Shown here one piece after another: positions 1-18,802 of a DNA stretch of 64,000 nt. Position 1 is the first letter of the stretch; each line of letters starts with the position of its first letter. The position numbers were made by a program, and so were the translations under genes. Below the pieces are notes generated by a model. The model ran no database searches, was not told the DNA's origin, and saw only the letters and a program-made list of their open reading frames with translations. Source of the stretch: Ruegeria sp. YS9 (GTDB lineage Bacteria > Pseudomonadota > Alphaproteobacteria > Rhodobacterales > Rhodobacteraceae); the NCBI RefSeq assembly GCF_024628725.1, contig NZ_CP102410.1, forward strand, positions 372,001-436,000. The letters run 5' to 3'.

Positions 1-44
1 CGCATCCGTGGCGCCCTCAACCCATGGTCCGGCCGGAAAGCCGC

Positions 45-1202: not shown

Positions 1203-1305
1203 CGGTTGCTCCTGAGTAATTCGGAATGTGTTGAACGTTACTCCCATTGGCCGGTCGAGCCGGCTTCATTCAATACCAAAAAACCTCATGGCGGATTGAG
1301 GCAGA

Positions 1306-2211: not shown

Positions 2212-2245
2212 GGCTGCTGCGTGGCTCAAGAGATAGAGGTGAGCT

Positions 2246-2261
2246 ACATTCATCCGAATGT
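2246..2261. promoter_or_regulatory. Candidate LysR operator dyad in the divergent promoter region
   Basis: Perfect 6-bp arms ACATTC / GAATGT separated by ATCC, in the 141-bp gap between the divergent LysR and reductase genes. The arrangement suits a LysR-type binding site. A partial look-alike, ATTCGGAATGTG, lies near 1218-1229 just ahead of the oxygenase. Function is inferred from position and symmetry only. Confidence 0.35.
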
Positions 2262-2352
2262 GAGAAATTTTGCAATTGAAATCTATGTTTTTTTCCTGCT
2301 GTTTGCGATCGGGTACAGGACCAAAGTCGACCGAGAACGAACAGGATGTGTG

Positions 2353-3297: not shown

Positions 3298-3722
3298 ACA
3301 GTATGATGGCTACCGCAATTCATAGCATTGCACTGTTCTCGCTAACATGGAAAACGAGTGAGTTTTATAGTCGTTTCATGTAATCGAAGTGTCGGATTCT
3401 CAAATTAGAACACTTAACCCATGCTATAGGTGTTTCGAAACTGGAAGCCCAATAACAACTTACGACGCTGCGATTATGTTTAAAGACATGCTGACTTATC
3501 ACTAGGACCAGGGATGTCGGCTGGCAGCGAATAATCGGGAGGAGATCTGCAGTAAGAAACGTAATGGGAGCACGCGTTGTTACTGCAAGCCCAAGTTTGG
3601 GCTGAACACAACTCACCATCGGTTTGCGCATCGTGCATGATTGTCCGCGTCGTGCAACGCGATGGTTTCCAGCACTTTTTCCAGAAGAACAAAAACGACA
3701 CACTCGAGGAGGAACGCGCGAT
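3298..3722. other. 425-bp gap without a supported gene
   Basis: The stretch between the reductase and the BCCT carrier is AT-richer than its surroundings. It holds no frame with recognisable content and no clear terminator. It probably carries the promoter of the BCCT gene. A GAGGAGG ribosome site lies at its end. Confidence 0.4.
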
Positions 3723-5549
3723 ATGTCGATACCCGAACCTTTCACGGACGTTGAAATAGAAACGGCTGATTCCGGATTCTATGAAAACTACAGCGTCCCA
3801 ATTGCCCTGATCAGCAAGGCCATCATGGTCGGGCTGGTCCTGTGGGCCCTGGTTTTCCCTGCGAATGCAAACAGCACGTTGGGCAGCCTGAACAGCCAGT
3901 TGCTGGAAGTCTTCAACAGCTTCTACATCGTCATTGTCGGTTTTTTCTTCTTTTTCCTGGCCGTTGTTGCGATCATTCCGTCCACGGGTCGCCGGATCAT
4001 GGGAACGCCGGGGGAAAAGCCCGAGTTTTCGAACTTCTCATGGTTTTCCATGATGTTCGGTGCCGGTCTTGGTGTCGGTCTCATGGTCTTTGCGACAGCA
4101 GAACCGCTGGGTCTCTGGGGATCTAACCCGGTTGTCGTTTCCGGCGCGGTCGAAGGTAACACGCCTGAGGCACTGCAATCGGCCTACCGTTTCACTTTCC
4201 TGCACTATGGTTTCCACGCCTGGGCGATCTACGTGGTGACCGGTCTGTCGTTGGCGTATTACGCTTATACACGCGACATGCCTCTGACGATCCGCTCGGC
4301 GCTGACTCCGCTGTTTGGCCGTTTCGTCAATGGTTTTTTCGGCCACGTGGTCGACGTTTTGGGCGTTGTCGCAACGATCCTCGGCGTGTCCGTAACTATC
4401 GGTTTTGGCGTCAGCCAGTTCATCGACGGCCTCTATGCCATCACCGGCATGCAGTGGATCATGGATCTGGGTGGCGAGGTGCCGACCCCCAGCAAGGTTG
4501 GTCTGATTGCAGGCTTGGTCGTCATCATGGGTCTGTCGATCATTTCGGCGGTTTCCGGTGTTGGCCGAGGTGTCAAGTACCTGTCCAACCTGAACCTGGT
4601 GCTGTCGATCATCCTGCTGGGCACTTTCGTGGTCTTCGGTTCGTTTGTCTTTGCCATGACCACTTATGGCACTGCGATGATCGACTACATTTTGCACTTC
4701 GTGTCGCTCAGCTTTAACGCCTATGGCCCGCTGTCGGCCGAAGCATTCGCAGCGGCCCTGCCGGCCGAGGCGCAAGCACATGCCGCAGACCTGATGGCAG
4801 GCGCGACCAATGCCTGGGGCAGCTTCGACGGCTTCAAAAGCGGTCTGGAAGGTGCAGCAGCCGAGTTGGACGAAGCAACCTTGGCCGCGGCCTATGCTGC
4901 GGGTGAGCAAGGTCGTCAGTTCGGCTGGCAATCAGGCTGGACTACCTTCTACTGGGCATGGTGGATCGCATTCTCGCCCTTCGTGGGTCTGTTCCTGGCG
5001 CGCATCTCCAAGGGGCGCAGCGTTCGTGAGTTCATTCTGGGCTGCGTGTTCGCACCTGCGCTGGTATGCTTTGCCTGGATGACCGTTCTGGGCGGCACAG
5101 CGATCGATCTGGAACTGGCAGGCGCGGCGGAAGGTGCGATCATTGGCGCATCGAACACCAACAAGCTGTTCGTAACCCTGTCCTACATGATCGACAGTGG
5201 GCTTCTGTCCATGCTGAACATCATGTGCGTGATCCTGATCATGACCTTCCTGGTGACCTCGGCTGACTCGGGTATTCTGGTGATGAACACCATCATGTCG
5301 GGTGGTAGCCAGGAAACCGGTATCAAGCACCGCATCATCTGGGGTGTGATCCTGACGGCGGTGATCGGCGCGCTGATCCTGGCGGCCGGTGAAAACAACC
5401 CGATGGACGCACTGCGCAACGCCATGATCATCGGTGCGCTTCCGTTCACCGTGGTGATGGGTCTGATGTGCGTATCGCTGGCCAAGGCGCTGTTCCGCGA
5501 CAGTCAGCGTGACAAGCACTCTGCCAGCAGCACGCAGGCTGCTGAATAA
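3723..5549 (+). CDS. BCCT-family betaine/carnitine/choline transporter
   Basis: 608 residues, an inner-membrane secondary carrier of the betaine/carnitine/choline type with about 12 hydrophobic segments. The family signature is plain near residues 410-440, with WTTFYWAWWIAFSPFVG followed by ISKGRSVREF. The ATG at 3723 is preceded by GAGGAGG; an upstream in-frame start adds an unlikely Arg-rich leader. The gene follows the reductase in the same direction and ends at a strong terminator. Its place beside a quaternary-amine oxygenase suggests that it feeds that enzyme rather than serving only osmoprotection. There is a periplasmic or loop insertion rich in Ala around residues 340-400. The substrate is not determinable from sequence. 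Confidence 0.92.
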   Translation: MSIPEPFTDVEIETADSGFYENYSVPIALISKAIMVGLVLWALVFPANANSTLGSLNSQLLEVFNSFYIVIVGFFFFFLAVVAIIPSTGRRIMGTPGEKPEFSNFSWFSMMFGAGLGVGLMVFATAEPLGLWGSNPVVVSGAVEGNTPEALQSAYRFTFLHYGFHAWAIYVVTGLSLAYYAYTRDMPLTIRSALTPLFGRFVNGFFGHVVDVLGVVATILGVSVTIGFGVSQFIDGLYAITGMQWIMDLGGEVPTPSKVGLIAGLVVIMGLSIISAVSGVGRGVKYLSNLNLVLSIILLGTFVVFGSFVFAMTTYGTAMIDYILHFVSLSFNAYGPLSAEAFAAALPAEAQAHAADLMAGATNAWGSFDGFKSGLEGAAAELDEATLAAAYAAGEQGRQFGWQSGWTTFYWAWWIAFSPFVGLFLARISKGRSVREFILGCVFAPALVCFAWMTVLGGTAIDLELAGAAEGAIIGASNTNKLFVTLSYMIDSGLLSMLNIMCVILIMTFLVTSADSGILVMNTIMSGGSQETGIKHRIIWGVILTAVIGALILAAGENNPMDALRNAMIIGALPFTVVMGLMCVSLAKALFRDSQRDKHSASSTQAAE

Positions 5550-5573
5550 GGCATAGGCTCAAAAAAAACAGGT

Positions 5574-5607
5574 CAGGCCGCCCCAACTGGGCGGCCTGTT
5601 CTTTTTT
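5574..5607 (+). terminator. Rho-independent terminator after the BCCT gene
   Basis: Perfect 10-bp stem CAGGCCGCCC / GGGCGGCCTG with a 5-base loop, followed by TTCTTTTTT. It lies 24 bp after the BCCT stop codon. Confidence 0.9.
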
Positions 5608-5899
5608 GGCAGATCGTAGCCTTTGAAATGAAAAACCCCAAAATTACCCCGGGGTCGATGCCGTACTGAACGGAGAACCAAGTCTGCCCCCTATCGACTG
5701 CCCGCATACCCCGTACTTCCGCCACCTCTGGCTGTTGTGGTGACAGTTTGCTCACCGGACCGGCGAGGGCCGCATCACCCGCCAGGGTCAATTTCCTTGC
5801 TGTTGCAACTTTGGATAAAAGGCTGTCACAGGGCCGCGGCAGGAACTTAGGACTTTCATCGAATGTTCCAGCGAAGGGCGGAAAGCTGGTCTTTCGAAC

Positions 5900-6460
5900 A
5901 TGCGCGTACTCGCAGGCATTCAGATGCTGCTTTTCAGTGGCCTGGCGGCTTTGGCCGAACCTTTGTCGCGCGAAGATATCGAATCCCATATCCGCGCGCC
6001 GTTCTCTTTGGGGCCGGCGTTGAACGAGAACGGCGTCGACAGTCTGCTGAACTCCGGCGGGGCCGATGCAGGCTATGTCTTTGAATCGGAGCCCCTGGCG
6101 CCATTGCCCGGTTTTTCCGGCGCACCGATCAACATGTTGATCGTGCTGGATCTTGAAGGGCGTTTTCTTGACGTGCAGTTGATTGAACATAACGAACCTT
6201 TTTTTGTTTCAGGGCTGGGAAAGGCCCCTTTCCACAAATTCTTCGAGCAATACAGGGGCCTTTCGTTCTCGGATTCCATCGTTGTCGGAACCCCGTACGG
6301 CGATGCAGCAAGCGGGTCGTCATTGGTGTATTTGGACGGGGTTACAAAGGCGACGGCAATGGTGCGGATCGCGCATGAATCTGTCATGGGTGCTGCTTTG
6401 GCAGTCGCGCGTGAGAAAATGCAGGGATTGGAACCGCACCGCTCAGGGTTTTGCTACTGA
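5900..6460 (+). pseudogene. nosR: nosR 5' fragment (N2O-reductase maturation flavoprotein)
   Basis: The frame encodes a signal peptide (MRVLAGIQMLLFSGLAALA) and about 170 residues of the periplasmic FMN-binding domain of NosR. Recognisable stretches are PGFSGAPINM, the FVSGLG segment, the QYRGLS segment and the VTKATAMVRIAHES region, where the flavin is normally attached. Homology stops near base 6425 and the frame ends at 6460. The membrane helices and ferredoxin-like C-terminal half of a full NosR (about 700 residues) are absent. The next bases continue, in another frame, as the end of a nosX-like gene. I read this as the 5' stump of nosR left by a large deletion. The family call comes from remembered NosR sequences, not a search. 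Confidence 0.75.
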
Positions 6461-6902
6461 TCTGGTCGATCGCGCCTTGCGCAAGGCCGGGTGGGAAAAG
6501 GTTCTGGTCAATATCGGAGAGTATTATGCAAGTGGCCGTCAGTGGCTGCTGGGTGTCTCGGATCCATTGCACGGGCTTGAGGAAGCCACGCATTTGAAAG
6601 ACCGCGCCATCGCTACGTCCAGCCCCGGCGTCATGCGCCTGCGGTCCGGCGGTGCTTACATCATCGACCCGATGGGCGAAAACGCACCGCTTTGGTCAAC
6701 GGTCAGTGTCCAGGCCCTGGATGCTGCGACAGCAGGCGCGCTTTCAACGGCATTCTGTCATGCTTCCGAGACTGAAATAGCAGCGGCCCTTGCGCGGGCA
6801 GCCGGCGATTGCATCGCAATCTGTGTTCGCCCCAATGGGAAAGTGGTCGTGCTTCAGAGTCAAAAAGCCCCGGATCACACCGAGGCTTTTCGAGTTCTTT
6901 GA
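6432..6902 (+). pseudogene. nosX: nosX (apbE-family) 3' fragment
   Basis: About 155 codons matching the C-terminal half of ApbE/NosX, the FAD:protein FMN transferase that flavinylates NosR. Visible stretches are NRTAQGFATDLVDRAL, VLVNIGEYYASG, the AIATSSPGVM segment, YIIDPMGE and LWSTVSVQ. The signal peptide and N-terminal half are missing. The frame differs from the adjoining nosR stump, so no fused protein would be made. An out-of-frame ATG at 6183 lies inside the nosR part and is not a credible start. In Paracoccus-type clusters nosX is the last gene after nosRZDFYL, so one deletion from within nosR to within nosX would leave exactly this pair. Confidence 0.75.
6863..6890 (-). terminator. 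Terminator hairpin at the end of the cox operon
   Basis: Arms AAAAGCCCCGG and CCGAGGCTTTT (one mismatch) around a 6-base loop, with A/T tails on both sides, so it could act in both directions. It lies 20 bp beyond the coxM stop on the minus strand and overlaps the tail of the nosX remnant on the plus strand. Confidence 0.65.
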
Positions 6903-6909
6903 GAGTGGC

Positions 6910-7701
6910 TTATATGCAGTCTGCAACCGCGCGTTTGGTCATGACCGAAACGAGATGTGCTCGATACTCCTTGCTGCCATGTAGATCAGCGATCATGTTC
7001 ACCGGGTTCACGCGCAGGTCCATGAGGGCATCAGGGCGAAATTCTTTGTTCAGCGCCTGTTCAGCCTCTGACCACCGGAAAACGCCGTCCTCGCTCGCGC
7101 CGGTTACCGCGACACGTACTCCGTCTGCGAAGCGGGCCAGATAGACCCCGACAAGCGCAAATCGCGACGCTGGCTGAAGGAACTTTTGGTAGCTCGCCGC
7201 TTGCGGTACCGGGAAACGGACCGATGTGATGATTTCACCCTCATCCAGCGCCGTCGTGAACATTCCCTGGAAAAAGTCATCGGCGGCAATCCGGCGGGTA
7301 TTGGTCACCACTGTCGCCCCTGATCCCGATACCCCTGCCGGATAACAGGCCGCAGGGTCATTGTTGGCAACCGAACCGCCAATCGTCCCGCGGTTGCGGA
7401 CTGCCGGATCGCCGATCTGACCGGCCAGCGCTGCAAGCGCTGGATATGATCCCGCGGCCTCGCGGGCGACGACAGCGTGGGGCGTCGCGCCACCGATCGA
7501 CACCGATCCGTCATCCTCGACGCAAACGCCTTGCATCTCGGGAATTCCGCTGACCGACACCAACTTGGACGGGGCCGCCAACCGTTGCTTCAATGTTGGG
7601 ATCAGCGTCTGTCCGCCCCCCAACGCCTGCGCATCCTCAGCCGTCAGTGCGGCAACCGCATCAGCTATAGTCGAGGGTTTCTCAAACTCGAAACTGTACA
7701 T
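6910..7701 (-). CDS. coxM: Molybdenum hydroxylase FAD-binding subunit (CoxM-like)
   Basis: 263 residues. Medium subunit of a CO-dehydrogenase/xanthine-dehydrogenase-type enzyme; it carries FAD and passes electrons from the 2Fe-2S subunit. The two FAD-binding motifs of the family are present: LGGGQT near residues 27-32 and GTIGGSVANNDP near 110. The C-terminal CO-dehydrogenase flavoprotein domain follows. It is the last gene of the minus-strand cox operon, 95 bp after coxL, with GGAAGGAA-type spacing before the ATG and a terminator just beyond the stop. Length is somewhat short for the family but complete. The substrate follows that of coxL and is not known. Confidence 0.88.
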   Translation of the reverse strand: MYSFEFEKPSTIADAVAALTAEDAQALGGGQTLIPTLKQRLAAPSKLVSVSGIPEMQGVCVEDDGSVSIGGATPHAVVAREAAGSYPALAALAGQIGDPAVRNRGTIGGSVANNDPAACYPAGVSGSGATVVTNTRRIAADDFFQGMFTTALDEGEIITSVRFPVPQAASYQKFLQPASRFALVGVYLARFADGVRVAVTGASEDGVFRWSEAEQALNKEFRPDALMDLRVNPVNMIADLHGSKEYRAHLVSVMTKRAVADCI

Positions 7702-7796
7702 TTCGTTCTTCCTTTCCGAAAGGCGCTGATCCGCCCTTCATCTGGCTATAAATATCCCGGGGAGCGCGAGGGGCTGGCCCCTCGCACTCTAACCTC

Positions 7797-10157
7797 TCAA
7801 CCTTGCATCGCCGTCCAAACGCGTGACGGGCTCATCGGCATGTCGATATGATCAATAGCCCTTCCACCCGAGTTCAACGCATCCAGCACCGCGTTGACCA
7901 CCGCAGGCGGTGAGCCGATCGCGCCGGCTTCGCCGCAGCCTTTCACGCCCAAGGGGTTGTGGGTACACGGCGTCTGGCTGGAATGGTCGACACCGTAGAA
8001 TGGCACGTCATCCGCACGCGGCATCGCGTAGTCCATGAAGGACGCGCTCAGCAGCTGGCCGTTTTCGTCATAGGCACAGTTCTCAAGCAGCGCCTGCCCG
8101 ATGCCCTGACCGATACCACCGTGCACCTGACCATCCACGATCATCGGGTTAACGATGTTGCCGAAGTCATCCGCCGCAGTGAATTTCTCGATGCTGACCT
8201 GACCGGTTTCCGGATCAACCTCGACTTCGCAGGCATAGGCGCCTGCCGGGAAGGTAAAGTTGGCCGGATCATAGAACGCGGTTTCCTCCAACCCGGGCTC
8301 CACTTCCAGTGGATAGTTGTGCGGGACATAGGCCGTCAGGGTCACATCGCCCCAGGCCACTGACTTATCAGTACCCGCAACGCTGAACTGACCGTCCTTC
8401 AGCTCGATATCGGCCTCGGACGCCTCCAGCAGGTGGGCCGCGATCTTCTTGGCCTTGTCGATCACCTTCTCGGTCGCCCTGACCATGGCAGACCCGCAAA
8501 CGGCCAGCGAACGCGAGCCATAGGTGCCCATGCCAAACGGGATCTTCGACGTATCGCCATGCACGATCTCGACCATCGACTCGTCGATGCCGATCATGTC
8601 GGCCACAACCTGCGGGAAGGCGGTTTCATGCCCCTGCCCGTGGCTATGCGCACCAACCATGACGCTGATCGAGCCGGTGGCGTTCACCCGCACGGTCGCC
8701 GCATCGTAAAGACCCGCTCGGGCCCCCAACATGCCAACGATGTTCGAGGGCGCAATCCCGCAGGCCTCGATATAGCAGTTGATGCCCAGGCCCCGCAGCT
8801 TGCCATTAGCCTCACTGGCCGAACGACGCGCCGCAAAACCCGCCAGATCGGCAGCGGCCTCCAGCTTGTCCATGGTCCCGTTGTAATCCCCGGTGTCATA
8901 GGTCAGCGCCACCGGCGTGTCATAGGGAAACTGGGTGACGAAGTTCTGACGACGCAGCGCAATCGGATCAACGCCCAGCTCGCGCGCGGCCTTGTCGATC
9001 ACGCGCTCCAGCTGGTACGTCGCTTCGGGGCGGCCTGCGCCGCGATAGGCGTCCACCGGCACTGTATTGGTGAACATCGCCTTCACGTTCACCTGAATGA
9101 CCGGCGTCTTGTAGTTGCCTGCCATCAGCGTACCGTGCAGCCAGGTCGGGACCGAGCTGGAGAAGGTGGACAGATAGGCACCCAGATTGGCGTATGTGTT
9201 GGTGCGCAGCCCGACGAAATTGTTGTCGGCATCCAGCGCCAGCTCGATCTTGCTGACATGGTCGCGGCCCTGTGCATCCGACATGAACGCCTCGGAGCGG
9301 CTGGCCGTCCACTTGACCGGACGGTTGCAGGCCTTGGCGGCGAAAGTACAAAACGCTTCCTCGGCGTAGTGGAAAATCTTGGTGCCGAAACCGCCGCCCA
9401 CATCCGGCGCCACGACGCGGACCTTGTGCTCAGGCAGGCCCAGCACGAAGGCACACATCAGCAGTCGGATCACATGCGGGTTCTGCGAGGTGGTATAGAG
9501 CGTGTATTCATCCGTGCCCCGGCTGTATTCCGCCACGGCCACGCGCGGTTCCATCGGGTTGGCAACCAGACGGTTGTTCACCAGTTCCAGCGTGGTGACA
9601 TGCGCCGCGTTGGCAAACACCTCGTTCACCTTGGCGTCGTCCGCCTCGCCCAGCTGCCAGTCATAGCAGATGTTGTTCTTCAGATCGTCATGGACCAGGG
9701 TCGCGCCATCCTGCGCGGCGGCTTTCATGTCGATCACCGCGGGCAGTTCCTCGATATCCACCTCGATGGCCTCGGCCGCGTCGCGGGCCTGCTCAAGGCT
9801 GTCGGCCACAACGGCGGCGATCGGGTCTCCCACATGGCGCACTTTGCCCTGCGCCAGAATGGGGTGCGGCGGCTCTTGCATCGGCGCGCCGTGCTTGTCG
9901 GTGACTTCCCAGCCGCAGGGCATCCCGCCCACGCCTTCAAAGTCTTTACCGGTGAAAACCTTGACCACGCCGGGCATGCTTTCAGCCGTCGAAGTGTCCA
10001 CGGATTTGATCCGGCCATGCGCGATGTCAGACCGCAGAAAATGCACATAGGCCTGACCATGTACGTTGATATCGTCGGTGTAATTGCCTGCTCCGGTCAG
10101 AAAGCGCACGTCCTCGCGTCGCTTGGAACTGGCTCCGATGCCACTGTCTTTGGGCAT
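7797..10157 (-). CDS. coxL: Form II CoxL-like molybdenum-binding large subunit
   Basis: 786 residues, catalytic subunit holding the molybdopterin cytosine dinucleotide cofactor. The active-site loop reads AYRGAGR at 370-376. This is the form II signature; form I CO dehydrogenases carry AYxCSFR. The catalytic Glu is E743 in GVKGCGEAGAIG. Other cofactor stretches are GGGFG near 254-258 and GQGHET further on. Start at 10157 has GGAGG upstream. Form I is the type firmly tied to CO oxidation in roseobacters; the physiological role of form II is unsettled. I would therefore call this an aldehyde/purine/CO-type hydroxylase of unknown substrate rather than a proven CO dehydrogenase. Confidence 0.9.
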   Translation of the reverse strand: MPKDSGIGASSKRREDVRFLTGAGNYTDDINVHGQAYVHFLRSDIAHGRIKSVDTSTAESMPGVVKVFTGKDFEGVGGMPCGWEVTDKHGAPMQEPPHPILAQGKVRHVGDPIAAVVADSLEQARDAAEAIEVDIEELPAVIDMKAAAQDGATLVHDDLKNNICYDWQLGEADDAKVNEVFANAAHVTTLELVNNRLVANPMEPRVAVAEYSRGTDEYTLYTTSQNPHVIRLLMCAFVLGLPEHKVRVVAPDVGGGFGTKIFHYAEEAFCTFAAKACNRPVKWTASRSEAFMSDAQGRDHVSKIELALDADNNFVGLRTNTYANLGAYLSTFSSSVPTWLHGTLMAGNYKTPVIQVNVKAMFTNTVPVDAYRGAGRPEATYQLERVIDKAARELGVDPIALRRQNFVTQFPYDTPVALTYDTGDYNGTMDKLEAAADLAGFAARRSASEANGKLRGLGINCYIEACGIAPSNIVGMLGARAGLYDAATVRVNATGSISVMVGAHSHGQGHETAFPQVVADMIGIDESMVEIVHGDTSKIPFGMGTYGSRSLAVCGSAMVRATEKVIDKAKKIAAHLLEASEADIELKDGQFSVAGTDKSVAWGDVTLTAYVPHNYPLEVEPGLEETAFYDPANFTFPAGAYACEVEVDPETGQVSIEKFTAADDFGNIVNPMIVDGQVHGGIGQGIGQALLENCAYDENGQLLSASFMDYAMPRADDVPFYGVDHSSQTPCTHNPLGVKGCGEAGAIGSPPAVVNAVLDALNSGGRAIDHIDMPMSPSRVWTAMQG

Positions 10158-10195
10158 TGCTTGTTCTCCTCCCTAAATCTTGAATAATGGAACCG

Positions 10196-10411
10196 TCAGT
10201 CTCTCCCGACAGTTCTGGCCTTGCCTTTCCAAGCCAACAACCCGGTCAAGGTAGCAAAGGCCAATACGATCAACTTTCCCAAAAGTATCCACATCTGCAG
10301 ATTATGTGGTTGCGGGCTTACCCACTCCACAAACACATTCCATCCCTGTAAAAAAACCACACAAACGAGTGCGATAGCGATGAAAGGAAAGATGTTCTTT
10401 GCTCGCTTCAT
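10196..10411 (-). CDS. Small two-helix membrane protein inside the cox operon
   Basis: 71 residues, not recognised. Two hydrophobic segments, about residues 8-28 and 39-62, separated by a short polar loop; the tail is basic (KGKARTVGRD). Its ATG lies one base after the coxS stop codon, so translation is probably coupled to coxS. Its stop lies 38 bp before coxL. Placement between two subunits of a soluble molybdenum enzyme suggests a role in membrane docking or electron delivery to the quinone pool, but that is a guess. It is short and could be dismissed by gene finders; the tight spacing on both sides and clean hydrophobicity pattern support it. Confidence 0.6.
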   Translation of the reverse strand: MKRAKNIFPFIAIALVCVVFLQGWNVFVEWVSPQPHNLQMWILLGKLIVLAFATLTGLLAWKGKARTVGRD

Positions 10412-10412
10412 G

Positions 10413-10895
10413 CTATTCTGCAGCTATGCTGCCGACGTCCTGACCAGATGCGGCCATGATCGCTTTGACAATGTTGTGGTATCCAGTGCAGCGGCACAGG
10501 TTGCCTTCCAGATATTTCCTGATTTCGGCCTCGGTCGGGCGCGGGTTCTCTTTCAGCAGAGCAGCGGTACTCATCACCATTCCCGGAGTGCAGAACCCAC
10601 ACTGAAGCCCGTGGTGATCCTGAAAGGCCTGCTGGATTACGTTCAGCGAACCATCCGGCGATGCCTGACCTTCAATAGTTCCGACATCAGCGCCGTCTGC
10701 TTCGGCAGCCAGCATGTTGCACGATTTCACGGCTTCGCCGTTCACATGTACCACGCAAGCACCACATTGTGCGGTATCGCACCCCACATGCGTCCCCGTC
10801 AAAGACAGGTTATCGCGCAGAAAACCGGACAACAATGTCCGGCCCTCGACGTCTCCGCTTACGGCTTTGCCATTCACGGTCATGGAAATCTTCAT
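10413..10895 (-). CDS. coxS: Molybdenum hydroxylase 2Fe-2S subunit (CoxS-like)
   Basis: 160 residues. Small subunit carrying two 2Fe-2S clusters. The plant-type ferredoxin cluster is C39, C44, C47 and C59; the helical-domain cluster is C99, C102, C134 and C136 (CGFCTPG and CRCTGYH). All eight cysteines are in place, so the electron path to FAD should be intact. The ATG at 10895 is preceded by GGGAGGAG; a longer start at 10919 lacks a ribosome site. It is the second gene of the operon after coxG and is followed one base later by the small membrane protein. Confidence 0.92.
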
Positions 10896-10923
10896 GACTT
10901 TCTCCTCCCTGAATTCCAAAGGA

Positions 10924-11448
10924 TCAACCGCCTAACACGCGCTTGATCCAACCTTTCTTTTCTTCCCCGGTCTCGCCTTCTTCCGAGGTTTCGGGTTCGG
11001 GCGCATCCTGAGGTTCGACCGCATTCTGGAAGTTCTCAAAGAACTGGTCGGCCATTTTTCTGGCAACCCCATCAATCACGCGCCCCCCCAACTGAGCCAG
11101 CTTGCCACCGACGCGCGCATCAACCTTGTAGGTCAGCAGCGTACCTTCGGGGGCGTCCGACAAGGTGACATCGGCCGCACCCTTGGCAAATCCGGCGGCT
11201 CCTCCCTTACCTTCACCCGATAACTTCACGCTTTCAAGCTCCACGAGATCAGAAAGGGTCACAGAGCCTTTGAAAGTCGCTTTGACCGGGCCTACTTTCT
11301 GCACGACGGTGGCCTCGAACCCGTCTTCGATCGAACCTGTCATCTCCTGACATCCCGGCACGCATTCTTTCAGAACCTCTGCCGACAAGAGCGCGGCCCA
11401 GACTTTGGATCGCGGCGCGGCGATGACGCGGCTGTCATTGAGTTCCAT
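10924..11448 (-). CDS. coxG: CoxG-family SRPBCC protein
   Basis: 174 residues. The first 140 or so match the CoxG/SRPBCC ligand-binding fold seen beside CO-dehydrogenase-type enzymes; typical stretches are SKVWAAL near residue 14 and the [14 protein letters not shown] region. CoxG has been linked to membrane attachment or quinone coupling of the enzyme. The last 30 residues are an acidic linker ending in a short basic tail, [11 protein letters not shown], that could form an amphipathic anchor. First gene of the minus-strand cox operon, with GGAG eight bases before the ATG. No operator is evident in the 73-bp gap upstream. Confidence 0.85.
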
Positions 11449-11521
11449 TTCACTTCTCCAAGTATATTTTTTGTTACGCTACGCGGTGTTCGCCGCCTTG
11501 CCTATAAGACCTTGGGTGTAG

Positions 11522-12418
11522 TCACCGCAGCGCGGGCGGCGAAAGTGTAAGGCCGTGACGATTGAAGATTTCGGTGATGCGCCCGTCCCGCAACGCCGCA
11601 TAAATGGCATCGTCCACAGCATAGCCGAGGCCGCGATAGGCGAAATGAACGGCCACGCCAGTGGTCCATGAACTGACGGCAAAACCGGGCAGGGGTGGGG
11701 TATGGATGTCCAGCTCTGGCGCCAGCCTGGCCTCAAGTTGGGCACGTGGTCCCATGGCCGCCATCGTCGCACCACCGGCAAGCGCCTGCATTGCCTTGGC
11801 GACAGTGGGATATCTGCGCATGTTTTGGGCCAATTGACCGCCGGGAAATGCCGACAAATAGAAATCGGCAATCGAATCGTTCTCGACGGCGACAGTGTCG
11901 ATCCGGAAATACGCAGGAACTGGCGGGTCATCGGGATAGGTATCGCGGCCATACGCGATGGCGATTTCCTCGACATGGTATTGCCCGGTGAAGACCACCT
12001 GTTCGACCCGGCAGGCGAATTCGCTGTCATAGGGGACGTGCAACATCACATTTGCGACCCGCCCATTGATCAGGGGTCCCTTCCAGATCCAGTTGCGCAG
12101 GTCGGCCTCAAGGTTTTCTCCGGCAGCCACCAGATTGAAACGCGCTTCAACATCCAGCTCCTCGGCAATCAACCTGCCTATGTCGATGTCCACGCCAAGT
12201 ATCTTGCCGTCCCTCTCATAGGACCACGGTGGGAAATCGTCATAGGCGGCGAATTCGATATAGCCACGCTCGACAATGGTATCGAGATCGGCGCCAACGA
12301 TATCCCGACCGGCGTTTTGTGGTTTGGGTTGAGGCACATGATCCTCGCATCGGGCCATCGCCATTCCGGTGGAAAGGGTGGCAGCCAACAGGAGGAGAAA
12401 AAGTGAGCGTCCGATCAT
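11522..12418 (-). CDS. xoxJ: MxaJ/XoxJ-type periplasmic solute-binding protein
   Basis: 298 residues with a signal peptide (MIGRSLFLLLLAATLSTGMA). Family 3 solute-binding fold of the sort linked to quinoprotein dehydrogenases. The stretch FAAYDDFPPWSY near residue 57 and VMLHVPYDSEFA near 124 are typical. MxaJ/XoxJ are needed for methanol-dehydrogenase maturation or activation. The reading frame is uninterrupted, unlike most of its neighbours. It starts 19 bp after the stop of the broken cytochrome gene, with GAGG upstream of the ATG, and would have formed one operon with it. With the dehydrogenase broken (15456-16769), its role here is doubtful unless a second XoxF is encoded elsewhere. Confidence 0.8.
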   Translation of the reverse strand: MIGRSLFLLLLAATLSTGMAMARCEDHVPQPKPQNAGRDIVGADLDTIVERGYIEFAAYDDFPPWSYERDGKILGVDIDIGRLIAEELDVEARFNLVAAGENLEADLRNWIWKGPLINGRVANVMLHVPYDSEFACRVEQVVFTGQYHVEEIAIAYGRDTYPDDPPVPAYFRIDTVAVENDSIADFYLSAFPGGQLAQNMRRYPTVAKAMQALAGGATMAAMGPRAQLEARLAPELDIHTPPLPGFAVSSWTTGVAVHFAYRGLGYAVDDAIYAALRDGRITEIFNRHGLTLSPPALR

Positions 12419-12436: not shown

Positions 12437-13119
12437 CTATTGCGCGGCAGACAATCCAATTGTCAGTTGTTCTGCGGCTTCCGCGAAATCAGGACTGTCG
12501 CCCGAGATCAGAACAGCGGCGCGGAAGGCCACGCTGTCAGCCACTGGGGCGCCCGATCCTGTTTCCACGGTGCTTGCAATCTCGCTGAGTTCCGACCGAA
12601 GCGCCGCGGCATCGCCTTCCCCACCGTCGGCCATCGAGGCCAGAAGGTCACGGATTTCTTTCAGCCGATCCGTATGATCGTCCAGCGCTCCATCGTCGCG
12701 GCGCGTTTCGATATAGGTGCGAATGGCCCAGGCGGCCTTTTGGCCCAACAGCTCTCCGAAGGCCGGCATCTTGGTGATCCCGTTCTGGGTATAGCCTTCG
12801 CGGAACCGTTCCACGTAGCATTCGTCGCCATATTCTTCAGCCTCGAGTTAGCGCAGGTCAGGCGCCAAACCGCCGGAAACCACGCCCAACCCATGGCAGC
12901 GCGCACAGTTTTGATTGTAACCGGAATCGCCAATTTCGATGGCGGCTTGCCAAACCTCATCACCCTGATCGCGATAGGGGTTTTCGATCAACCATTCCTC
13001 ACCCACATCCGGCAGGGCATCTGTATTCACCGGCTGCGGGGCGACATCTCCGTGCGCAAACGCCATGCCGCCTGCGGTCAGGCCAGCCAGCGCTGTGTGA
13101 AAAAAAATACAAGACGCAT
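12437..13119 (-). pseudogene. PedF/XoxG-like cytochrome c, frameshifted and interrupted by a stop
   Basis: Monohaem cytochrome c paired with PQQ alcohol dehydrogenases, with haem motif CARCH and APDLR typical of cytochrome c-550 PedF. Two lesions are visible. First, an ATG at 13119 with a good AAGGAGG site reads MRLVFFF and then leaves frame at an eight-base T run (A run at 13100-13107). One more T would join it to HTALAGLTAGG and the mature part, restoring a normal signal peptide. Second, codon 12848-12850 is TAA between DLR and LEAEEYGDE, where relatives have Tyr. The rest of the frame is open to 12437. Either the gene is dead or two assembly errors coincide; both lesions within one gene favour decay. 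Confidence 0.75.
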
Positions 13120-13248
13120 CGTTTCCTCCTTCTGATGCTTGCCCCGGTCATAGCTCAGGGAAAACCATCGTGAAATTCGACCTTGGTTGCAGATGATCCG
13201 CCGCGTGCGACAAAGGTCGAATGGCATGCCACCCAAGGACTCATTTTA

Positions 13249-14445
13249 GTGGAGGCGCATCGGAGGAGGAGCAAACACGGCCATGTTTTTCGCGTCTTAG
13301 CAACCCTTGTTCTGTTGCCAATGGTTGCTGCGGCTGAGGTCTCTGTATCTGTTGTCTACCTTCAGCATCAGGTCAGGCGACCACCGGTTTTGTCGAACCT
13401 TGACCCATTGCCCGAAGACCTTGGTGCGGCGGGTGCGAAACTGGCACAGACAGACAATCTGACAACGGCCAAGTTTCTGGGTCACAAGTGCGAACTGACA
13501 GTTGCGACAGCCCCGCAAGACTGGGATTGGCTTCAAACGGCGCGCCGGGCCCTGTCCCAGACAAGCTTCCTGATATTGGACGCACCTGCGCAGGCGCAAC
13601 TGGCGGTCGCTGATCTTCCCGAGGCCGCCGACGCCATCTTGTTCAACGCGTCTGCACCCGAACGCGACATAAGAGATACCACCGGCCGCGCCAACCTGCT
13701 GCACACTATGCCATCAGACGCGATGCGCACGGACGTATTGGCACAGTTTCTGGTCAAAAGACGCTGGGACGATCTGGTTCTGATCACCGGAGAGCACGTG
13801 TCGGACGTGGCCTTTGCAGACGCCTTGAGACAGCCGCTGACCAAGTTCGGACTGGAGTTTCGTGCAGAAAAGATCTGGCGTTTTGATGCTGACCTGAGAC
13901 GTAATGCGGCCCAGGAAGTTCCAGTTTTCACTCAGGATTTCGGAGATTACGATGTCTTGCTGGTTGCTGATGAACTGAACGACTTTGCCCGGTCCATACC
14001 GTTCAACACATGGGAACCCAGACCGGTTGCAGGTTCGGAAGGGTTGCGACCGGTGGCGTGGTCGCCCGTGGTCGAGCAATGGGGGGCGGTTCAGTTGCAG
14101 AGCCGGTTCGCCGATCAAGCAGGACGGTCGATGAGGTCAATCGACTATGCGGCATGGGCTGCGTTTCGGTCATTGGGCGAGGCTGTGACCCGAACGCAAT
14201 CTGGCGATCCTTCTGTTCTGCCGGACTACATTCTGTCGGACAGATTTGAACTGGCAGGCTTCAAGGGCCGGGCGATGAGTTTCCGCGCCTGGAACGGCCA
14301 GTTGCGCCAACCAATCCCTTTGGTGACGGGACGGGCTGTCGTGGCCCTCGCACCGCTTCAGGGTTTCCTGCACCAACGAACGGAACTGGATACGCTTGGC
14401 ATTGATGAGCCCGAAAGCCAGTGCACGGCCTTCAAGGAGGAATGA
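13249..14445 (+). CDS. PQQ-pathway ABC-type substrate-binding protein, start probably damaged
   Basis: About 398 residues, branched-chain-type periplasmic binding fold of the family found beside PQQ alcohol dehydrogenases. The hydrophobic export segment is VLATLVLLPMVAAA. The natural start appears to be the ATG at 13283, about ten bases after GGAGGAGG. That frame reaches TAG after five codons; one extra T in the five-base run at 13286-13290 would join it to the export segment. As it stands only GTG at 13249 or an upstream ATG opens the frame, giving an Arg-rich leader. The stop overlaps the next gene region (AATGA). No partner ATPase or permease lies nearby. The family call is fairly sure, expression is not. 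Confidence 0.65.
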   Translation: MEAHRRRSKHGHVFRVLATLVLLPMVAAAEVSVSVVYLQHQVRRPPVLSNLDPLPEDLGAAGAKLAQTDNLTTAKFLGHKCELTVATAPQDWDWLQTARRALSQTSFLILDAPAQAQLAVADLPEAADAILFNASAPERDIRDTTGRANLLHTMPSDAMRTDVLAQFLVKRRWDDLVLITGEHVSDVAFADALRQPLTKFGLEFRAEKIWRFDADLRRNAAQEVPVFTQDFGDYDVLLVADELNDFARSIPFNTWEPRPVAGSEGLRPVAWSPVVEQWGAVQLQSRFADQAGRSMRSIDYAAWAAFRSLGEAVTRTQSGDPSVLPDYILSDRFELAGFKGRAMSFRAWNGQLRQPIPLVTGRAVVALAPLQGFLHQRTELDTLGIDEPESQCTAFKEE

Positions 14446-14447
14446 AG

Positions 14448-15047
14448 ATGAAGGTAGCCACCCTTTTGGCTGCGACGGCACTTTGCGCCCCGGCGGCCGC
14501 AGATGAAATCTGGGTAAGCAACGAAAAAGACGACACGCTCAGTGTGATCGACATCGAAACGTTTGAAGTGATCCGCACCCTTGAAACCGGTGAACGACCA
14601 CGCGGGATTACTTTTACCAAGGACTTCTCGGTTCTCTACATCTGCGCGTCAGACAATGACTCGGTGCAGGTCATGGATCCCGAAACCGGAGAAATCCTTT
14701 ATGATCTGCCGTCCGGCGAAGACCCCGAACAGTTCGTTTTGCACCCGAATGATCGGCATCTCTACATCGCCAACGAAGATGACGCGATCACAACTGTCGT
14801 CGATACGGTGTCGCGGAGGGTGATTGCCCAGATTGACGTGGGTATCGAACCGGAAGGAATGGCGGTTTCACCCGATGGAAAGATCGCTGTCACCACATCC
14901 GAGACCACCAACATGGCTCATTGGATCGATACTGAAACACAGGAGTTGTTCGCCAACACCCTGGTGGATTCGCGCCCGCGCCACGCGGAATTCATGAAGG
15001 GCGGAACCGAACTTTGGGTCAGCTCTGAAATCGACGCCGAAAACTGA
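14448..15047 (+). CDS. YVTN-type beta-propeller protein, C-terminally truncated
   Basis: 199 residues starting MKVATLLAATALCAPAAA, a clear signal peptide, with AAGGAGG six bases before this ATG. Repeated blades follow, with WVSNEKDDTLSVID, LYICASDNDSVQVMD and LYIANEDDAITTVVD. It belongs to the PQQ-catabolism beta-propeller proteins, which normally run to roughly 320 residues. Here the frame stops right after ELWVSSEI, so the last third is missing and the propeller cannot close. The following 400 bp hold no recognisable continuation. Probably a non-functional remnant in the decaying quinoprotein locus, though the open part could still be translated and exported. Confidence 0.7.
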   Translation: MKVATLLAATALCAPAAADEIWVSNEKDDTLSVIDIETFEVIRTLETGERPRGITFTKDFSVLYICASDNDSVQVMDPETGEILYDLPSGEDPEQFVLHPNDRHLYIANEDDAITTVVDTVSRRVIAQIDVGIEPEGMAVSPDGKIAVTTSETTNMAHWIDTETQELFANTLVDSRPRHAEFMKGGTELWVSSEIDAEN

Positions 15048-15455
15048 AACAAGCTCCTGAATTTCAGCGGCAATGGTGGTCGGCAGATTTTTGGGCGGCC
15101 TGAAAGGTCAAGGAAACATATCCCGGCATTCTGGGCGGGACGTCGCGGGACAGACCCGTTCCGAACGACGCGCGCAGGGCCAAATGGCGCAACCGTATCA
15201 AGATCATGTTCGTCCGGGAGAAGGATCGGCGCCGCGTCGCAATCCGTTGCGACAGATGCCCGAAAGTGGTCCGATAAGTCACCGCTGGTGCCGCCGAAAC
15301 CATGAGTGTGGAGCCCGGATGAAATGCGCGAATTGCCCCCACGACCATTGTGCAATTTCGCCGACAGACCCGCCTGCGAATAGTTGCCATGCCAACAGCT
15401 CCGACCTGTCGGGGATTCGGCGTGGAGGGAAGACTCAAGTCTAGGGAGGAAACCG
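15048..15455. other. 408-bp decayed spacer between propeller stump and dehydrogenase remnant
   Basis: No frame gives a recognisable product. Short frames on both strands exist but lack ribosome sites and family features. In related loci this interval holds the rest of the propeller gene and sometimes transporter genes, so I take it as residue of a deletion. A GGGAGG site at 15444-15449 precedes the damaged dehydrogenase start. Confidence 0.5.
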
Positions 15456-16769
15456 AAGAACCGGTTCACAATGACGGTGGTCGCAAGCGTGATTGCAGTG
15501 GGCACGGCCCATGCAGAAGTTACCGAGGACGATCTGGCCAACGACCAGTCAATTACGACCTAGGTCGTGACAAACGGGATGGGACGCCACTTGCAGCGCT
15601 ACAGCCCGTTGGACATGCTGAACAAGGACAACGTCAAGAACCTGTTGCCGGCCTGGGCGTTCAGCCTTGGTGGCGAAAAACAGCGCGGGCAGGAAACCCA
15701 GGCACTGATCTATGACGGCATGATGTACATCACCGGATCGTATTCGCGCCTGTATGCGATTGATCTGGAGACCGGCAAAGAGGTCTGGCAATACGATGCG
15801 CGCCTGCCCGAGGGCATCCTGCCTTGCTGTGACGTGTTGAATCGGGGTGCCGCCATCTACGGTGACAAGGTGATTTTCGGGACACTTGATGCCCGGATCG
15901 TGGCCCTGAACAAAGACACCGGTGACGTTGTGTGGCGTGACAAGATCGCGGATTACAAGGCGGGGTGCTCTTACACCGCGGCTCCGCTGATCGTCGACGG
16001 GCTGGTGATCACCGGAAATCCCGGCGGGTATTTCTATGTTCTGAACCGCGAAGACGGCGCCTTTGTGCCGGCCAATCCGTTTGTCAAAGACATAACATGG
16101 GCGTCCGGCGTGGATGGGACCGGCCGTCCGGTCTTTGCCGAAGACAACCGCCCTGGCGATCCGGCGTCAGCGGCTGATGGCAAGAAGGGTGAAGTGATCT
16201 TTGCATCGCCTTCTTTCCTTGGCGGCAAGAACCGGATGCCGATGGCCTTCTCGCAGCGTACCGGTAACTTCTATGTGCCATCGAACGAATGGGGCATGGA
16301 TATCTGGAACGAGCCGATCTCGTACAAAAAGGGTGCTGCCTATCTGGGCGCAGGCTTTACGATCAAACCAAACTGCGAAGATCACATCGGCTCGCTCAAG
16401 GCCATCGACCCGGATACCGGCGAATGGAAATGGGAATACAAGAACGACGCGCCGCTGTGGTCAGGCGTGATGACGACGGCTGGCGGGCTGGTGTTCTTTG
16501 GCACGCCCGAAGGTGAGTTTATCGCGCTGGATGACGAAACCGGCGAGAAACTGTGGTCGTTCCAGACCGGCTCGGGCATCGTCGGGCAGCCTGTGACCTG
16601 GGAACAGTACGGCGAACAATATGTCTCGATCATTTCGGGCTGGGGCGGCGCGGTTCCTCTGTGGGGTGATGAGGTGGCCAAGAAGGTCAACTACCTGAAC
16701 CAGGGCGGCACCTTGTGGACTTTCCGCCTGCCGAAGGAACTGGCTTCGGCTAACTGCCCTAGGACGTAA
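15456..16769 (+). pseudogene. xoxF: XoxF-type PQQ methanol/alcohol dehydrogenase, deleted and disrupted
   Basis: Quinoprotein closely resembling Xox[44 protein letters not shown] (the vicinal cysteines), WGMDIWNEP, and [16 protein letters not shown] text near the end. Three lesions are visible. The expected start after GGGAGGAAACCG is AAG (15456-15458) instead of ATG, although the text after it, NRFTMTVVASVIAVGTAHA, is a good signal peptide. Codon 15561-15563 is TAG. About 130-150 residues are missing in frame between VITGNPGG and [10 protein letters not shown], near base 16026. That segment normally carries the catalytic Asp and the Glu, Asn and Asp ligands of the lanthanide. Even if translated from 15567 the product could not work. 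Confidence 0.85.
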
Positions 16770-16899: not shown

Positions 16900-17583
16900 A
16901 TGCTTGCTGAATCCGCCGCACGCAATGATTTCGAAAACGTGCTGATCGTTGATGACCATCCATTGTTTTGCGACGCCTTGTCGATGACCCTGCAAAGTGT
17001 GGCTCAGATTCGGGAAATCCATACGGCAGACCGGCTGGAAGACGCATTGGATCTGCTGGCAAGTGGGCTGAAACCTGATGCTGTCATGCTGGATCTCAAT
17101 TTACCGGATGTGGACGGGTTGGATGGCCTTGTCCGCTTGAAGGCTGCCGCAAACGCACCGGTAATCGTGGTGTCGTCGCTGACCGACAACCGCGTCGTCA
17201 GCCAGGTGATACGGGCCGGCGCATCGGGCTATGTCCCCAAGCACAGTCAGCGCGACGTGTTCCGTACTGCATTCGAGACCGTGCATGCCGGTGACGTCTT
17301 CGTGCCGGAAGGCTGCGTTTTGATCGACACAGAGGAAGACGACGAACACGGCGAAGCGGTCAAACGACTGGCGACACTGACAAACCAGCAGGCGCGTATC
17401 CTGCAACTGATCTGCGAAGGTAAACTGAACAAGCAAATCGCCTATGACCTGTCGATTGCGGAAACGACCGTCAAAGCGCATGTGACCGCAATAATGCGAA
17501 AACTGGGTGTCCAAAGCCGCACGCAGGCGGTTCTGATCGCCAAGAAAGCGTCTTTTGCCAGTGTCTTGCAAGATCAAGGCTAG
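16900..17583 (+). CDS. LuxR/NarL-family response regulator
   Basis: 227 residues. Receiver domain at about 13-130 with acidic pair VDDH (18-19) and phospho-acceptor D65 in VMLDLNLPD, then a LuxR helix-turn-helix at about 163-220 (LTNQQARILQ, NKQIAYDLSIAETTVKAHV). It begins 130 bp after the dead xoxF and precedes, in the same direction, a FIST protein and a hybrid histidine kinase. Such sets control PQQ alcohol-dehydrogenase genes in pseudomonads and relatives, which makes this the likely regulator of the neighbouring locus. The frame is complete with all key residues, so it may still control genes elsewhere. Confidence 0.88.
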   Translation: MLAESAARNDFENVLIVDDHPLFCDALSMTLQSVAQIREIHTADRLEDALDLLASGLKPDAVMLDLNLPDVDGLDGLVRLKAAANAPVIVVSSLTDNRVVSQVIRAGASGYVPKHSQRDVFRTAFETVHAGDVFVPEGCVLIDTEEDDEHGEAVKRLATLTNQQARILQLICEGKLNKQIAYDLSIAETTVKAHVTAIMRKLGVQSRTQAVLIAKKASFASVLQDQG

Positions 17584-17629
17584 GCGTCATACTCTCACGT
17601 TATCGTCGCGCTTTTAGGGAGGAGGCACG

Positions 17630-18799
17630 ATGGACCAAGCAGTCGGGCGGGCAACAGCCCGGGCCCGTACGCCAGGCATCGTCAAAACGGCTTTTGCACG
17701 CCACGACACCGGGCAGTCGATCGAGACACTCAGACGCCAGTTGGGTGATGACCCACTTGCGCTTGTCATTCTTTTTGTCAGCCCGAACGCTGATGCACCC
17801 GTGGTGATCGCGGATGCCGCGCGCGCCTTTGCGCCGACCCCGATTGTTGGATGCACCACCGCCGGAGAGCTGGCGGATAGTGGGTATTGCGAAGATCAGA
17901 TCGTCGCGATCGGCCTGCCGCAATCCCATTTCGAAACACGCACGGTTCTTGTTCCGGACCTGAACGAATTCGATTCCGACAGCATCATCAAAGAGATGAT
18001 CCACAACAGGAACGCGATGATGGCAAGCGCGCCCGAATGGAGCCACGAATTCACGTTCCTGATGATTGACGGGCTGTCGACAAAAGAAGATGAACTGACG
18101 TCGGAATTGGCTGTGGGGCTTGGGCCGGTACCATTGTTCGGTGGATCGGCGGGGGATGGAACCAAATTCGGGCGCACATATGTTCTGTATCAGGGACAGG
18201 CAAGAAGCAATGCCGCCATACTGACCCAGGTTCGCACGCGGTGTCCGATCAAGGTGTTCAAGACCGATCACCTTCTGCCCACCGCCCGCCGCATGGTGGT
18301 GACCAAGGCGGACCCGGCCAAACGCATCGTTCAGGAAATCAATGCCGAACCCGCGGCCCGCGAATACGCCCGCATTCTCGGCAAAGACCCGGAACAGCTC
18401 ACTACATTCACATTCGCAGCCCATCCGGTCGTTGTGCAAATAGGCGGGCAACACCATGTCCGTGCGATCCAGCAGGTGGCGGGAAACGGCGATCTTGTCT
18501 TTTTTTCGGCGATTGACGAAGGCTTGGTCCTGACGCTGGCCGAACCTCGGGACATGGTTGAACACCTACAGGAAGAAATCAGCCTGTTGACCGAGAAGCA
18601 GCAACCCGACACCATTTTGGGTTGTGACTGCATTCTTCGCCGGCTGGAGGCCCAGCAAAAGCAGAGGACGCGCGCGATCTCGAACATTCTGTCTCGCAAT
18701 CACGTGGTCGGTTTCTCGACCTATGGAGAGCAATTCAATTCGATCCATGTGAACCAGACCCTGACCGGTGTGGCGATATACCCGCCCGAGAAAGAGTAA
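17630..18799 (+). CDS. FIST N/C-domain sensory protein
   Basis: 389 residues, no signal peptide or membrane segment, so cytoplasmic. The FIST N domain (about 30-230) includes the typical GCTTAGELADSGY and LFGGSAGDG; the FIST C domain (about 235-370) includes LGCDCILRRLEA and GFSTYGEQF. FIST domains are thought to bind small ligands, possibly amino acids, and often precede signalling genes. A strong GGGAGGAGG site lies before the ATG at 17630. The gene stands 46 bp after the response regulator and 3 bp before the histidine kinase, so the three are probably one operon and this protein may feed a signal to the kinase. Confidence 0.9.
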   Translation: MDQAVGRATARARTPGIVKTAFARHDTGQSIETLRRQLGDDPLALVILFVSPNADAPVVIADAARAFAPTPIVGCTTAGELADSGYCEDQIVAIGLPQSHFETRTVLVPDLNEFDSDSIIKEMIHNRNAMMASAPEWSHEFTFLMIDGLSTKEDELTSELAVGLGPVPLFGGSAGDGTKFGRTYVLYQGQARSNAAILTQVRTRCPIKVFKTDHLLPTARRMVVTKADPAKRIVQEINAEPAAREYARILGKDPEQLTTFTFAAHPVVVQIGGQHHVRAIQQVAGNGDLVFFSAIDEGLVLTLAEPRDMVEHLQEEISLLTEKQQPDTILGCDCILRRLEAQQKQRTRAISNILSRNHVVGFSTYGEQFNSIHVNQTLTGVAIYPPEKE

Positions 18800-18802
18800 G
18801 GC

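Follow-up and report, generated by a model that had tools for sequence, protein, structure and literature searches.

Organization of the locus

The DNA analyzed here, which we call the window, is a 64,000-nucleotide stretch of Ruegeria sp. YS9 (contig NZ_CP102410.1, positions 372,001 to 436,000; C2:372001-436000 in our numbering of this genome, G000). Near its left end, a remnant of a NosR-like gene runs directly into a remnant of an apbE gene. Three relatives recur below: G027; G044, which we infer to be Ruegeria sp. AD91A (plasmid NZ_CP031947.1); and G042, which appears to be Ruegeria sp. THAF33 (pTHAF33_a). The features at the junction are as follows, in window coordinates.

5900..6430, + strand, remnant of the NosR-like gene, residues 1-177 of 687, periplasmic FMN domain (NCBIfam NosR profile, tblastn)
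6335..6355, + strand, putative flavin-attachment motif DGVTKAT, threonine codon 6353-6355, retained in the stump (alignment, rule of PMC12052999)
6440..6442, + strand, deletion joint with the 3-bp repeat CGC on both sides, 1,983 bp gone relative to G044 (alignments)
6441..6902, + strand, remnant of the apbE gene, about residues 153-294 of 295 (Pfam ApbE, alignment, tblastn)

The open reading frame at 5900-6460, whose start resembles a signal peptide by eye, matched the NCBIfam NosR profile over residues 24-173 with 83.9 bits (E = 7.8e-24), below the model cut-off of 1000 bits, and the segment 6432-6899 matched positions 131-260 of 266 of the Pfam ApbE model (53.8 bits, E = 2.6e-14). With the intact G027 proteins as tblastn queries, residues 1-177 of the NosR-like protein were placed at 5900-6430 with 86% identity and ApbE residues 153-294 at 6432-6857 with 72% identity. 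The ApbE frame extends to 6902 because the stop codon found in G044, G027, and G042 is altered in the window. The NosR-like and ApbE pieces are in different reading frames. An earlier note on this DNA, made from the letters alone, had described a NosR-type N terminus running out of frame into the C-terminal half of an ApbE-type protein, and profiles, tblastn, and alignment confirm this description; the protein search of both fragments that the note proposed identified NosR-like N-terminal and ApbE C-terminal parts.

A single deletion within two adjoining genes

A DNA search of 101 genomes (our own and 100 relatives) gave matches to the locus in 17, our own included. G044 aligns to window positions 36-6442 and then again from 6440 on, at 89 to 91% identity, with 1,983 bp between these two alignments that are absent from the window; just before the joint, the left flank in the window lacks one base relative to G044 and G027. 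At the same site in both of these relatives, an intact gene for a 687-amino-acid NosR-like protein overlaps a 295-amino-acid apbE, with no gene between, and on the AD91A plasmid (743,267 bp, circular) the pair is annotated as "4Fe-4S binding protein" and "FAD:protein FMN transferase." The window stumps are the two ends of this one two-gene unit, with DNA identities of 86 and 89% in G044 and of 81 and 77% in G027, and this correspondence to a single unit means that the junction is not a product of chance. Thus, the junction is the scar of a single 1,983-bp deletion within two adjoining genes, a case of ordinary gene loss. The single deletion postulated in the earlier note, with one end in a NosR-type gene and the other in an ApbE-type gene, matches the intact pair in G044 and G027, and its suggestion that the loss was recent enough to leave both stumps readable likewise holds.

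At the G042 site (G042:C2:452082-452735, L027), only apbE pieces remain, with other breakpoints, and most of the dehydrogenase block described below is lost; a second island with an intact pair is present on G042 contig C3. An ancestral scar common to the window and G042 was rejected because the G042 ApbE remnant extends further left than the window joint and because its left breakpoint precedes the NosR-like start. The decaying copies in the window and G042, with their different breakpoints, suggest that the island has been lost repeatedly.

The earlier note had held that an intact family with the NosR-like N terminus fused in frame to an ApbE C terminus would speak against a deletion. Among 84 distinct NosR-like open reading frames, some of which are overlong at the N terminus because the earliest start was taken, one (L123; Rhodobacterales bacterium HKCCE2091, WVSL01000032.1, around 10001-11980) continues in frame into a nearly whole ApbE as one open frame of 980 codons, and a same-frame ApbE match is absent from the other 83. 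A fusion in one frame is therefore found for the whole NosR-like protein with ApbE, and none was found that joins a short N terminus to half of ApbE. The L123 frame either represents a natural fusion in which flavoprotein and flavin transferase are joined, or reads through the intergenic gap; as a single frame, it ties the NosR-like protein and ApbE together.

The NosR-like gene is distinct from the nosR of the same genome

The earlier note had taken the gene to be nosR of a nos operon, the deletion to have removed that operon, and the lineage to have lost N2O reduction, and had predicted a nos cluster beside the same neighbors in relatives. None of these four points survived. Replicon C2 holds nosR, nosZ, nosD, nosF, nosY, and nosX at about C2:318600-327100, about 50 kb away from the junction, with intact nosZ and nosD whose products score 1,140.7 bits (cut-off 625) and 489.8 bits (cut-off 300), respectively; for nosF, nosY, and nosX, the names come from the order of the genes and their sequence rather than from a family cut-off. 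In G044, nosR and nosZ lie at a similar distance from the pair site. The 1,983 bp fall in two adjoining genes, with no nosZ, nosD, nosF, or nosY between these genes in G044 and G027, and no nosZ or nosD was found at the pair site of either relative. Among the best 80 of 137 loci, the flanking DNA examined contained nosZ or nosD in none.

The NosR-like orthologues form a distinct group, 54 to 100% identical to the G027 protein; the next full-length matches, among them the strain's own NosR, are 29 to 35% identical to it. The intact G027 orthologue scores 471.7 bits against the NCBIfam NosR equivalog cut-off of 1000, and the strain's true NosR, at 808.1 bits, is also under this cut-off. A second NosR-like gene of the same orthologue group was not found in the strain's own genome, and its remaining NosX is only 41% identical to the island ApbE.

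The surrounding island is a decaying ped-type cluster

In G027 and G032, the pair lies in an island that has pqqB, pqqC, pqqD, and pqqE on one side and cox-like genes on the other; past the cox-like genes come a PedG-like gene, PedF, a PQQ_ABC binding protein, a beta-propeller protein, a CXXCW-like protein, an ABC ATPase, a PedC permease, a cytochrome c, and a PQQ alcohol dehydrogenase. We classed this as a ped-type cluster, with matches over the cut-off in G027 for PedF, PedC, PQQ_ABC_ATP, and the dehydrogenase. The corresponding features in the window are listed below, with N:S denoting amino-acid-changing to silent codon changes.

3723..5549, + strand, BCCT transporter, intact left neighbor, N:S of 3:34 on the window branch (Pfam BCCT)
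5563..5606, + strand, outer end of the segment that carries pqqEDCB in G027 (blastn, 80%)
5846..5897, + strand, inner end of the G027 pqqEDCB stretch, upstream of the NosR-like start (blastn, 85%)
6910..11448, - strand, intact cox-like genes
11522..12418, - strand, PedG-like periplasmic binding protein gene, open frame, named by position
12437..13105, - strand, pedF (cytochrome c550), frame broken by a 2-bp insertion (TIGR04494 in two pieces)
13183..14445, + strand, PQQ-system ABC binding protein gene, open frame, one extra base near the start relative to relatives (TIGR03863)
14421..15047, + strand, beta-propeller gene, cut off at about position 188 of the 310-position profile (TIGR03866)
15037..15319, + strand, second deletion, 283 bp compared to 3,228 bp in G044
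15457..16769, + strand, pseudogene of the PQQ alcohol dehydrogenase (type A)
16900..21016, + strand, response regulator, NosP-like sensor, and histidine kinase, intact, downstream of the island

The pqq genes are absent at the window site, where blastn detects only the ends of the G027 pqq stretch. With the reduction from 3,228 to 283 bp, the rest of the beta-propeller gene, the CXXCW-like gene, the cytochrome c gene, and other genes are missing. The type A pseudogene carries an in-frame stop and a 1-bp deletion and lacks 465 bp at 16025-16027. Thus, the island is decaying in this Ruegeria through several separate lesions. G044 also lacks pqq genes at the site except for a pqqE remnant, and its ABC ATPase and permease are remnants only, so that G044 is partly eroded too and the erosion is graded. 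In G027, the frame of the PedC-type permease is 191 amino acids long (stitched 20243-20818, L024 plus L042) compared to 263 in G032, which may mean that loss of the island is beginning even in the most complete of the close relatives.

Codon changes give a similar picture. On the window branch, eight island pieces together had an N:S of 63:128, compared to 68:390 in ten flanking genes (Fisher P = 5.5e-7); the corresponding values on the G044 branch were 19:110 and 36:369 (P = 0.067). The flanks taken jointly also differed between the window and G044 branches (68:390 versus 36:369, P = 0.0086; coxL alone, P = 0.031), so part of the rise on the window branch is shared or genome-wide. For the PedG-like gene, which retains an open frame, 19 amino-acid-changing and 14 silent changes fall on the window branch compared to 5:23 in G044.

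Two further observations concern the neighbors. The AD91A annotation gives the cox-like genes as xanthine dehydrogenase family M and molybdopterin subunits, a 2Fe-2S protein, and CODH subunit G, and the gap between the coxL-like and coxS-like genes (10178-10414) is 237 bp in the window compared to 61 bp in G044 and G042; in the window it contains a minus-strand open reading frame of 71 amino acids (10196-10411) whose product, judged by eye, resembles a small membrane protein. Downstream, the NosP-like nitric-oxide sensor (17630-18799; 398.5 bits, cut-off 450) and a histidine kinase stand intact beside the broken island, as they do in relatives.

The NosR-like gene co-occurs with a PedH-like dehydrogenase

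A full-length NosR-like gene (65 to 100% identity, over 1,000 bits) was present in 16 of the 101 genomes; all 16 also had a PQQ dehydrogenase over the cut-off, and 5 lacked nosZ. In a broader set of 292 Rhodobacterales genomes, 62 carried the NosR-like gene (40 of 112 genera), 102 a PQQ dehydrogenase, and 96 nosZ. A PQQ dehydrogenase of any type was found in 61 of the 62 carriers and in 41 of the 230 non-carriers. When dehydrogenases were divided into types A and B (see below), the NosR-like gene and type A coincided in 61 of 62 genomes in both directions, with related genomes counted as independent. Type B was found in 9 of 62 carriers versus 36 of 230 non-carriers (P = 1), and nosZ in 14 versus 82 (P = 0.067), related genomes again being counted as independent; by the nos_propeller model, 48 of the 62 carriers are without nosZ. 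Because type A tracks the NosR-like gene while the XoxF-like type B and nosZ do not, we assign the pair to the type A system. The single exceptions are G246, which has the NosR-like gene without type A, on a 4.7-kb contig, and G222, which has type A without the NosR-like gene, on a contig that begins inside coxS.

The tie is also visible in gene order. In 47 of the 62 carriers, the NosR-like gene and a dehydrogenase share a contig with less than 20 kb between their starts; in 5 they are farther apart on the same contig, in 9 the dehydrogenase is on a different contig, and 1 has none. Among the best 80 of 137 loci, apbE was named beside the NosR-like gene in 75; 62 loci had PQQ accessory or dehydrogenase genes in the flanks, 17 had pqq genes, and 69 had at least one of the two kinds, leaving 11, some on short contigs, with no PQQ genes in the flanking DNA examined.

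Types A and B were split by match length, with a tree check on 15 of the sampled genes; G373 (1,611 bp) was excluded from the typing as ambiguous, as were dehydrogenase matches scoring below 700 bits. In a tree of 30 distinct dehydrogenases, from which three further type B stretches without a complete open reading frame were dropped, type A (21 sequences) and type B (9 sequences) separate. The solved chains closest to type A are 6zcv and 6zcw (814 and 806 bits), which we take to be PedH of Pseudomonas putida. Lanthanide-dependent PQQ alcohol dehydrogenases (PedH/ExaF) carry an additional aspartate at the second position past the catalytic aspartate, and the motif GWDYDGVN (D-Y-D) is present in the G027 type A enzyme. 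By these sequence features, type A is probably a PedH-like, lanthanide-dependent dehydrogenase.

The strain also has an intact second PQQ dehydrogenase of the XoxF-like type B at C2:21817-23439, 37% identical to the island type A enzyme (34 to 37% for type B overall), with pqqC at C2:34765-35475 and pqqB and pqqE beside pqqC. The island in the window looks redundant, since this second intact dehydrogenase and PQQ genes are on the same replicon. The type B island (G000:C2:14000-42000; L126, L127) is itself intact and has pqq genes and no NosR-like gene.

Architecture and predicted role of the intact pair

In an alignment of 43 members (42 NosR-like proteins and the strain's own NosR), Fer4_5 was detected in all 43 and FMN_bind in 21. 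At each of 12 cysteine positions, at least 83 of 84 distinct NosR-like proteins retain the residue, and the strain's own NosR has all 12 as well. The motif DGVTKAT occurs in 72 of the 84 distinct proteins (82 of 96 loci, with some genomes represented twice). An excerpt of PMC12052999 gives the flavin-attachment rule as D-x-x-[S/T]-G-A-[S/T], which DGVTKAT fits everywhere but at the glycine, where lysine stands. A search by sequence found no solved structure of the whole NosR-like protein, and a structure model was weak, with a mean pLDDT of 70.6. In a fold search with this model, chains of RnfG, a covalent-FMN subunit, ranked 1, 4, 5, and 12 (rank 1, probability of 1.00, E = 2.3e-3); no match reached an E value of 0.001, and the other leading matches were mostly immunoglobulin-like.

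These features suggest a role for the intact pair. ApbE would attach FMN to the periplasmic domain of the NosR-like membrane protein, and the pair could then carry electrons between the quinone pool and the periplasm via iron-sulfur clusters and the covalent FMN. This route is drawn by analogy with NosR serving N2O reductase, of which NosR is thought to be the electron donor (PMC12052999, in excerpt). We tentatively propose, as somewhat short of an even bet, that the pair mediates a quinol-fed reduction of a periplasmic factor needed by the type A system, for example in its maturation or protection. We favor the quinol-fed direction since electrons from PQQ are unlikely to be accepted by a low-potential flavin. 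The usual electron exit of the alcohol system is PedF, and the terminal acceptor of P. putida PedF is unknown according to part of a 2026 review (PMC12997753). None of this can take place with the genes of the window, because the membrane half of the NosR-like protein and half of ApbE are gone.

Taken together, we consider it very probable that the junction is a deletion scar in the NosR-like/ApbE unit of an apparently redundant, decaying ped-type island whose intact pair forms a putative transmembrane electron carrier. It is about as likely as not that, more generally, a NosR-type flavo-iron-sulfur protein with ApbE is a near-constant part of the PedH-like, probably lanthanide-dependent system of Rhodobacterales, a dedicated line between quinone and periplasm that the PedH-like enzyme needs and XoxF does not.

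Alternative explanations

The domain types at the junction are those of NosR and NosX, as they would be if a nos operon that gave an ancestor N2O reduction had been deleted here. However, G044 and G027 have two genes only at the site, intact nos genes lie about 50 kb away in the strain itself, G044 has nosR and nosZ at a similar distance, 48 of the 62 carriers have no nosZ, and nosZ and nosD appear in the flanks of 0 of the best 80 of 137 loci. That reading is very improbable, and we ruled out nos-operon loss on the relatives' gene order and the strain's own intact nos genes. An assembly artefact that collapsed two kilobases is just as improbable: in the assembled sequence the joint carries a 3-bp repeat only, with no long collapsible repeat, and neighboring island genes are broken independently.

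Two other possibilities take the genes of the locus to act differently than in the ped-type reading. Quite unlikely is that the cell retains the 186-residue stump as a small secreted protein to which the remaining NosX, or some other ApbE, attaches flavin. Its start, signal-peptide-like segment, and flavin motif are intact, and constraint on the stump is not clearly lost: N:S was 9:19 on the window branch versus 3:13 on the G044 branch (P = 0.49), and no excess of departures at conserved residues was found (6 versus 6 in intact G027). Such a protein would, however, have no evident electron source without the membrane and iron-sulfur parts, its own ApbE is halved and the rest of the island broken, and the identity of the remaining NosX to the island ApbE, given above, is low. 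Slightly less unlikely, although still improbable, is that the pair serves the adjacent cox-like enzyme of the xanthine-dehydrogenase family rather than the alcohol dehydrogenase, since a coxM-like gene is found in 39 of the best 80 of 137 loci, often adjoining the pair. Against this partner, many loci have no coxM-like gene and pass from the pair directly to PQQ accessory genes, the cox-like genes remain intact in the window and in G042 after loss of the pair, and the type A dehydrogenase coincides with the pair in 61 of 62 genomes.

Relation to known systems

We return to the preferred reading, in which the pair belongs to a PedH-like system. The intact pair resembles NosR plus NosX/ApbE in the domain order of the NosR-like protein (FMN, helices, 4Fe-4S cysteine motifs) and in the separate, adjoining ApbE, but it differs from NosR in its identity of about 30%, in having DGVTKAT instead of DIISGAT, in having no nosZ nearby, and in tracking a PQQ alcohol dehydrogenase. 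The island shares with the Pseudomonas ped/exa cluster (PedE, PedH) its PedF, PedC-type permease, PQQ_ABC ATPase, TIGR03863 and TIGR03866 proteins, pqq genes, and PedH-like dehydrogenase, whereas the near-constant NosR-like/ApbE pair sets the Rhodobacterales island apart; a term search of the main text of the 2026 review of the Pseudomonas cluster (PMC12997753) returned no NosR, ApbE, FMN, or 4Fe-4S. Roseobacter XoxF methanol dehydrogenase clusters, as described in part of PMC5934484, likewise combine a PQQ dehydrogenase with a cytochrome and a periplasmic binding protein, but the XoxF-like type B enzyme, with the low identity to type A given above, does not follow the NosR-like gene in its distribution. 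A further parallel comes from PceC of reductive dehalogenases and from RnfG/NqrC, electron carriers in or at the membrane that have a domain with covalently bound FMN (PMC12052999, in excerpt). Covalent FMN is putative here, and these carriers differ from the NosR-like protein in partners and sequence.

In methanotrophs, NosR is treated within nosRZDFYLX clusters, and methanol-dehydrogenase cytochromes may feed NosZ, according to part of PMC11102522; that link from cytochrome to NosZ is different from the tie between the NosR-like protein and a PQQ alcohol dehydrogenase seen here. In our literature search, the scope of which left preprints and most subscription papers outside, no title or abstract opening among the papers listed linked a NosR-like protein or ApbE with a PQQ alcohol dehydrogenase. 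The near-constant NosR-like/ApbE companion of the PedH-like dehydrogenase thus appears to be so far unrecognized within that literature, and it matters more than the scar itself: by the near one-to-one tie, the type A enzyme is accompanied by a predicted membrane flavin line, and XoxF is not. It follows that NosR-like and ApbE genes together do not imply N2O respiration. Annotation by name would mislead denitrifier surveys, and the database names we found for the NosR-like protein are regulatory protein NosR, regulator of nitric oxide reductase, and 4Fe-4S binding protein.
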